Notes under the pieces: model-generated
What the model saw: the letters and a program-made list of their open reading frames with translations, nothing else
The model's database searches: none
What the model was told of the DNA's origin: nothing
NCBI RefSeq assembly: GCF_032854445.1
Contig: NC_088307.1
Location: forward strand, 27,878,547-27,942,546
Origin: Liolophura sinensis
Taxonomy: Eukaryota > Mollusca > Polyplacophora > Chitonida > Chitonidae
Length of the DNA: 64,000 bases
Direction: 5' to 3'
Position numbers and translations under genes: made by a program
Part shown: positions 715 to 41,361 of the stretch, piece after piece
Layout: the number at the start of each line of letters is the position of its first letter
Position numbering within the stretch: the stretch's first letter is position 1

Positions 715-964
715 TCAAAGAGAACAGCTTGAGAAGGACAGTGGGAGATTTCGGAAGTATAATCGTGGAAGGAGAGAGGCGGAAGACGATGATGTCAGCG
801 GAGTGAAGGAGGAGGTCGCCATGTTGTTTGTCAAACAGCGCGAGCAACAGTGCCCGGATTCTGTGGCCAGTCTTTTTGCTCCTGGGCAGTCTTTCTCGTC
901 ACATACGTGATTTCTGAGTTGCTCGGCCCTCATGGCGGCTGTCGTCTGCCGCTTCCATTTTGTC
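715..964 (-). CDS. Homeobox gene exon 3 (end of homeodomain, C-terminus, stop)
   Basis: 250 coding bases. The exon opens with G, completing the split Arg155 codon, then ACA AAA TGG AAG CGG gives T-K-W-K-R, the end of homeodomain helix 3. The acceptor is TTCATAG after a run of pyrimidines (plus positions 967-990). The C-terminus (residues 163-237) has C176, C181, C194, C195, C198 and H174, H193, then a Ser-rich tail ending at TGA (715-717). I see no known domain in this tail. Confidence 0.9.

Positions 965-41361: not shown

Follow-up and report, generated by a model that had tools for sequence, protein, structure and literature searches.

A probable Bari-type homeobox gene lies head to head with CFAP77 in the chiton Liolophura sinensis

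In the genome of the chiton Liolophura sinensis a Bar-class homeobox gene, probably Bari, lies head to head with CFAP77, the two genes being divergent and the first bases of their start codons 12,244 bp apart. The pair occupies part of a stretch of 64,000 nucleotides, here called the window (RefSeq assembly GCF_032854445.1, contig NC_088307.1, here C13; C13:27878547-27942546), and the genome searches covered the assembly of 609,464,459 bases in 632 contigs. A Bar-class homeobox gene is also found near CFAP77 in mammals (CFAP77-BARHL1 of human 9q34 and mouse chromosome 2). Considering the mammalian papers together with this chiton, an ancient Bar-CFAP77 linkage is plausible, and the reading that we prefer, with about an even chance of being correct, is that the pair has survived from an ancestral neighbourhood of a Bar gene and CFAP77 which Bar regulatory DNA kept together. 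An earlier note, made from the letters of this DNA, had described a divergent layout with about 12.2 kb between the starts, which the measured distance bears out, and had placed the pair at 715-41361, in agreement with both gene models (Table 1).

Table 1 Features of the Bari-type gene (name probable), CFAP77 and the interval between them; positions are those of the window
Feature	Position	Strand	Evidence or content
Bari-type gene exon 3	715..964	-	homeodomain end (TKWKRQT) to the stop at 715-717
Bari-type gene exon 2	3603..3969	-	homeodomain up to R53
Bari-type gene exon 1	6846..6942	-	start codon at 6942, N-terminal FLIRDLL motif; sequence and donor site
Interval between start codons	6943..19185		12.24 kb; holds a minisatellite of 52-bp units at 10619-11191
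CFAP77 exon 1	19186..19281	+	MSADYL...LGVQRETMLGNELLLN; LGV.R..M common to two aligned CFAP77 chains
CFAP77 exon 2	20461..20560	+	PELGRPRRRGYNFPGDSSTFGRPN...; phase-matched candidate, agrees with CFAP77 chains
CFAP77 exon 3	22353..22593	+	PF14825, E=3.3e-15
CFAP77 exon 4	29782..29890	+	PF14825, E=3.3e-4
CFAP77 last exon with stop	41233..41361	+	aligns with the C-terminal end of CFAP77 chain 8snb_4N, E=1.3e-4

The Bar-class gene (715-6942, minus strand) is an open three-exon model whose exons have GT/AG splice ends and phases that agree across all three, and its joined product comprises 237 amino acids. The Pfam Homeodomain is complete in this protein (E=1.2e-21, positions 1-57 of 57); the homeobox, which is interrupted by an intron after R53, scored 71.7 bits in the PF00046 genome scan (150 of 312 candidates scored). 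Helix 3 contains T47 and TWYQNRR, which we take to be the rule for the Bar class (BarH, Bari and Barx), and the seven best PDB sequences for the homeodomain are all BARHL2. The intact model, the full domain and these matches uphold the earlier recognition of a Bar-class gene.

CFAP77, a ciliary doublet-microtubule protein presumably placed inside the doublet microtubules, is encoded on the plus strand (19186-41361), the modelled protein of about 224 amino acids being spread over 22 kb. Its first four exons joined in frame match PF14825 nearly completely (E=1.1e-46, profile positions 1-156 of 157), and in the PDB search all five sequences at E<=0.001 are CFAP77 (best E=2.1e-37, with the joined middle exons), the solved structures carrying the name Cilia- and flagella-associated protein 77; the identity proposed in the earlier note has thus passed a homology search. 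Both matches of PF14825 in the assembly fall inside the window (three of three candidates scored), and in this search the gene is the only CFAP77 matched. An internal exon may be absent from the model between 29.9 and 41.2 kb, where an exon scan gave four candidates, none of them convincing. A minisatellite of 63-bp units (36075-36894) lies between the fourth modelled exon and the last one; further long minisatellites in the window are the one entered in Table 1 and another at 60529-60889 (39-bp units). An interspersed repeat, whose translation includes ...PTTIRRLLADLPTYGRRGSQHELDLN, recurs at 4247-4606, 13546-13777, 17546-17822, 47660-47962 and at other places. Rfam gave no match in the window at gathering scores.

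The closest solved homeodomain to that of the window gene is BARHL2, with 44 of 62 residues identical (71%). As the yardstick of identity we used four pairs of chiton and PDB homeodomains, every pair compared being included: Barx/BARX1 (54/61), Gbx/GBX1 (58/63), Msx/Msx1 (52/58) and Tlx/fly C15 (53/60), the chiton homeodomains having been assigned to families here by sequence and best PDB match. Since these pairs are 88-92% identical, a BARHL2 orthologue would be expected near 90%, and the figure of 71%, below the level expected of BarH, therefore indicates a paralogue. Judged from its sequence, the window gene is probably a paralogue and not the orthologue of BarH. The suspicion voiced in the earlier note that it might be Bari is favoured by this comparison, and the gene is probably Bari, a name that leans on the fly sequence: 52 of 58 residues are identical to what we take to be the homeodomain of fly CG11085 (Bari), which presumably also has the same 12-residue core and TWYQNRRTKWKRQ. 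The chiton gene resembles the Bari family (fly CG11085, onychophoran, amphioxus) in a short C-terminus and presumably in the homeodomain core and TWYQNRRTKWKRQ; its C-terminal tail differs from the end of onychophoran Bari implied by a printed reverse primer (MFVPGCQH in our own reading), as given in an excerpt of the source. The stretch AVGLELLAEAGN, which we take to be the conserved BarH tail, is absent after TKWKRQT in exon 3. In a homeodomain-only tree of 21 rows without a Bari reference, BARHL2 was the row nearest to the window gene, with no support for this placement; the Barx, Tlx and Msx pairs carried stars, and the Gbx pair had 93/87. As it gave the window gene no supported grouping, the tree is evidence neither way. 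According to passages of two papers, Bari is present in amphioxus and protostomes and was lost in vertebrates (PMC6466738, PMC2982225). Bar gene repertoires are also treated in parts of PMC6050708 and PMC10726417; a term look-up in excerpts of PMC5585340, PMC7566022 and PMC12005716 gave no Bar gene content.

The earlier note had further supposed that a true BarH may lie just beyond the 64 kb. With the window homeodomain as the query, 62 matches were obtained in the genome (137 of 137 candidates scored), 20 of which were taken up as loci; 18 stretches from the PF00046 and homeodomain searches were considered, 12 of them with a readable homeodomain, and the other matches were judged by identity figures alone. 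None of the 62 matches outside the window exceeds 63% identity, BARHL2 itself having 71%, and by our naming the best ones belong to NK1 (two), Barx (one), Gbx (one), Hmx (two) and Msx (three). At least seven homeobox places exist on C13, including the window's own (150 of 312 candidates scored). Among these matches listed, the nearest others are at 24.43 and 24.47 Mb, LIM-class by appearance, and no other C13 homeobox occurs in the 3.4 Mb upstream of the window or in the 2.2 Mb that remain downstream to the contig end. The supposition of an adjacent BarH therefore failed, and a BarH beside the window or a BarH-Bari tandem flanking CFAP77 was rejected, there being no neighbouring homeobox among the matches listed and no identity above 63% outside the window. 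A candidate at C1:84193381 was likewise rejected as BarH, since by eye it resembles the exon at C1:85208251 more than it does BARHL2. Biomphalaria snails carry Barhl paralogues, according to a part of PMC8848322, so that the failure to see a BarH-like homeodomain in the chiton assembly would reflect a loss, an assembly gap or a split gene.

Several other homeobox loci came to light in these searches; their names were assigned here. The C1:84193381 locus (L031, C1:84189500-84197500, at about 3700-4000) holds a partial homeodomain ending at the intron position of the window gene, its N-terminal half being elsewhere. Three Msx-like genes are spread over about 86 kb (L018, L019 and L020, C6:50.62-50.71 Mb), and NK1-like (L012, L014), Hmx-like (L016, L017) and Mnx-like (L033, L034) genes occur in pairs. 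A Barx-like homeodomain in L013 (C1:92959455-92962643) is followed by in-frame repeats of its own helix-3 stretch; either part of the homeodomain is tandemly repeated in the coding sequence or the assembly is faulty there.

Human CFAP77 and BARHL1 are, as we take it, immediate neighbours that share the plus strand, BARHL1 following CFAP77; the human partner is the BarH copy, on the 3′ side and the same strand, whereas the chiton partner is of the Bari type, on the 5′ side and the opposite strand. On the far side of the Bari-type gene lies a GH20 hexosaminidase, presumably not among the 9q34 neighbours; a Tc3-type transposase helix-turn-helix (PF01498; L051:5431-5892, minus strand) is situated between the hexosaminidase exons and the Bari-type gene. 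In the 42 kb beyond CFAP77 the 11 ORFs selected for a search (seven in the window, four in the flank) matched no Pfam family, which suits a gene-poor stretch without showing one. TSC1, which we take to be a 9q34 gene, is on C13 at 6.92 Mb (7/7 matches there), 21 Mb from the window. The sole match of MED27, a poor one with two internal stops that yielded no clean exon on reading, is on contig C8, which is weak evidence against wider synteny. GTF3C4 (PF12657) and SPACA9 (PF15120) gave no match in the assembly and have no bearing on synteny. Since the wider synteny around the pair is mixed and weak, the argument for an old linkage comes down to the adjacency of the two genes.

The mammalian side of the comparison is documented in excerpts of two papers. 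In a mouse QTL table Med27, Ntng2, Setx, Ttf1, Rapgef1, Ak8, Cfap77, Barhl1, Ddx31 and Gtf3c4 are given as top candidates within a single chromosome 2 interval of 1.8 Mb (PMC10950258), and in Micro-C of the mouse cochlea the promoter regions of Barhl1 and Cfap77, both described as hair-cell genes, interact in hair cells (PMC12568336). The Cfap77-Barhl1 neighbourhood assumed in the earlier note is thereby supported for the mouse, and because the two genes share an interval and their promoter regions interact, the resemblance between the chiton and mammals is genuine. BARHL1/2 have also been named, in a passage of PMC2745767, among the targets of duplicated genomic regulatory blocks that were kept in duplicate. 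No paper on a Bari-CFAP77 linkage was found within the literature searched.

How much of the first interpretation stands follows from these results: the Bar-class gene beside CFAP77, the head-to-head layout and the mammalian parallel hold, and the BarH beyond 64 kb does not, none being present among the homeobox matches listed. According to the preferred reading, the relic of an ancestral neighbourhood, an ancestor would have had either a single Bar gene or BarH and Bari in tandem beside CFAP77; vertebrates would have retained the BarH copy (BARHL1) at CFAP77 and lost Bari, and the chiton would have retained Bari there. Putative Bar enhancers would lie in the flanks and long introns of CFAP77, itself a bystander, and selection against breaks between the Bar gene and CFAP77 would keep the linkage. 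Bari itself would be expected to bind DNA through its homeodomain and so to regulate late neural differentiation; an excerpt of PMC6466738 describes expression of onychophoran Bari in brain domains late in development. The 22-kb gene body of CFAP77 and the Pfam-free selected ORFs downstream are compatible with Bar enhancers in the CFAP77 introns and flanks. A developmental transcription factor next to an unrelated gene with long introns is likewise the combination that characterises genomic regulatory blocks with bystanders. Both the common origin of the linkage and the role of enhancers as its cause are what we infer from this evidence, and nothing seen suggests cooperation of Bari and CFAP77 at the protein level.

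The strongest competitor, which we consider rather unlikely, is that Bari and CFAP77 are chance neighbours in a mollusc genome, noticed for their resemblance to human 9q34. Coincidence gains from the same points of sequence and gene order that weigh against a common origin: the chiton partner appears to be a paralogue of the mammalian one, its side and orientation differ from those that we take to hold in human, and the wider synteny is mixed, with the hexosaminidase as the other neighbour, TSC1 21 Mb off and MED27 on C8. Bari can also move, since in Pieris butterflies it lies near one end of the NK cluster after a rearrangement, according to an excerpt of PMC9977156. Against chance stands the rarity of such an event under random gene order: with the 28,010 protein-coding genes of the published Liolophura genome (as stated in a part of PMC11068029) and the two Bar-class genes seen (the window gene and Barx), the probability of the adjacency is about 1.4e-4, rising to about 1.4e-3 if ten different mammalian neighbours would each have drawn attention. 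Random adjacency, with this margin for choice included, thus stays at about 1e-4 to 1e-3. These figures are a guide only, because the comparison was picked after the fact, which itself speaks for coincidence.

A more specific form of common origin, to which we give a low probability, is that the bilaterian ancestor had a cassette BarH-CFAP77-Bari or BarH-Bari-CFAP77 produced by tandem duplication beside CFAP77. Vertebrates would then have kept BarH on one side and lost Bari, the chiton would have kept Bari on the other and lost BarH, and it would be the regulatory landscape, not a particular gene, that was held for more than 500 million years.

It is decidedly improbable that the window gene is instead a divergent BarH, the only one of the chiton, so that after a local inversion the linkage would be directly orthologous to BARHL1-CFAP77. 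The lack of any other BarH-like homeodomain (none above 63% outside the window), BARHL2 as the closest PDB match and the TKWKRQT end common to both would fit it, but the homeodomain falls far short of the identity of the four pairs, the presumed BarH stretch is missing after TKWKRQT, and the match to the presumed fly CG11085 sequence is far better. The window gene is very probably not BarH.

Least probable, and very unlikely in our estimate, is a functional coupling in which the pair shares regulatory DNA because both genes function in ciliated sensory cells, a role that Barhl1 and Cfap77 may have in mouse hair cells: the promoter-region contact of these two hair-cell genes, as excerpted from PMC12568336, and the head-to-head layout in the chiton agree with it, but a bidirectional promoter would hardly be shared across 12.2 kb, and the Bari expression described in the consulted part of PMC6466738 is confined to domains of the onychophoran brain and to a faint, ubiquitous signal in fly data.

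If the neighbourhood of Bari and CFAP77 is a coincidence, it is a caution against taking the adjacency of a paralogue as conserved microsynteny. If, as in the preferred reading, the linkage is ancestral, it would connect the regulatory landscapes of a vertebrate and a lophotrochozoan, would reveal where Bari and BarH arose, and would open the question of whether the split of Bari and BarH came later than Bar enhancers inside CFAP77.
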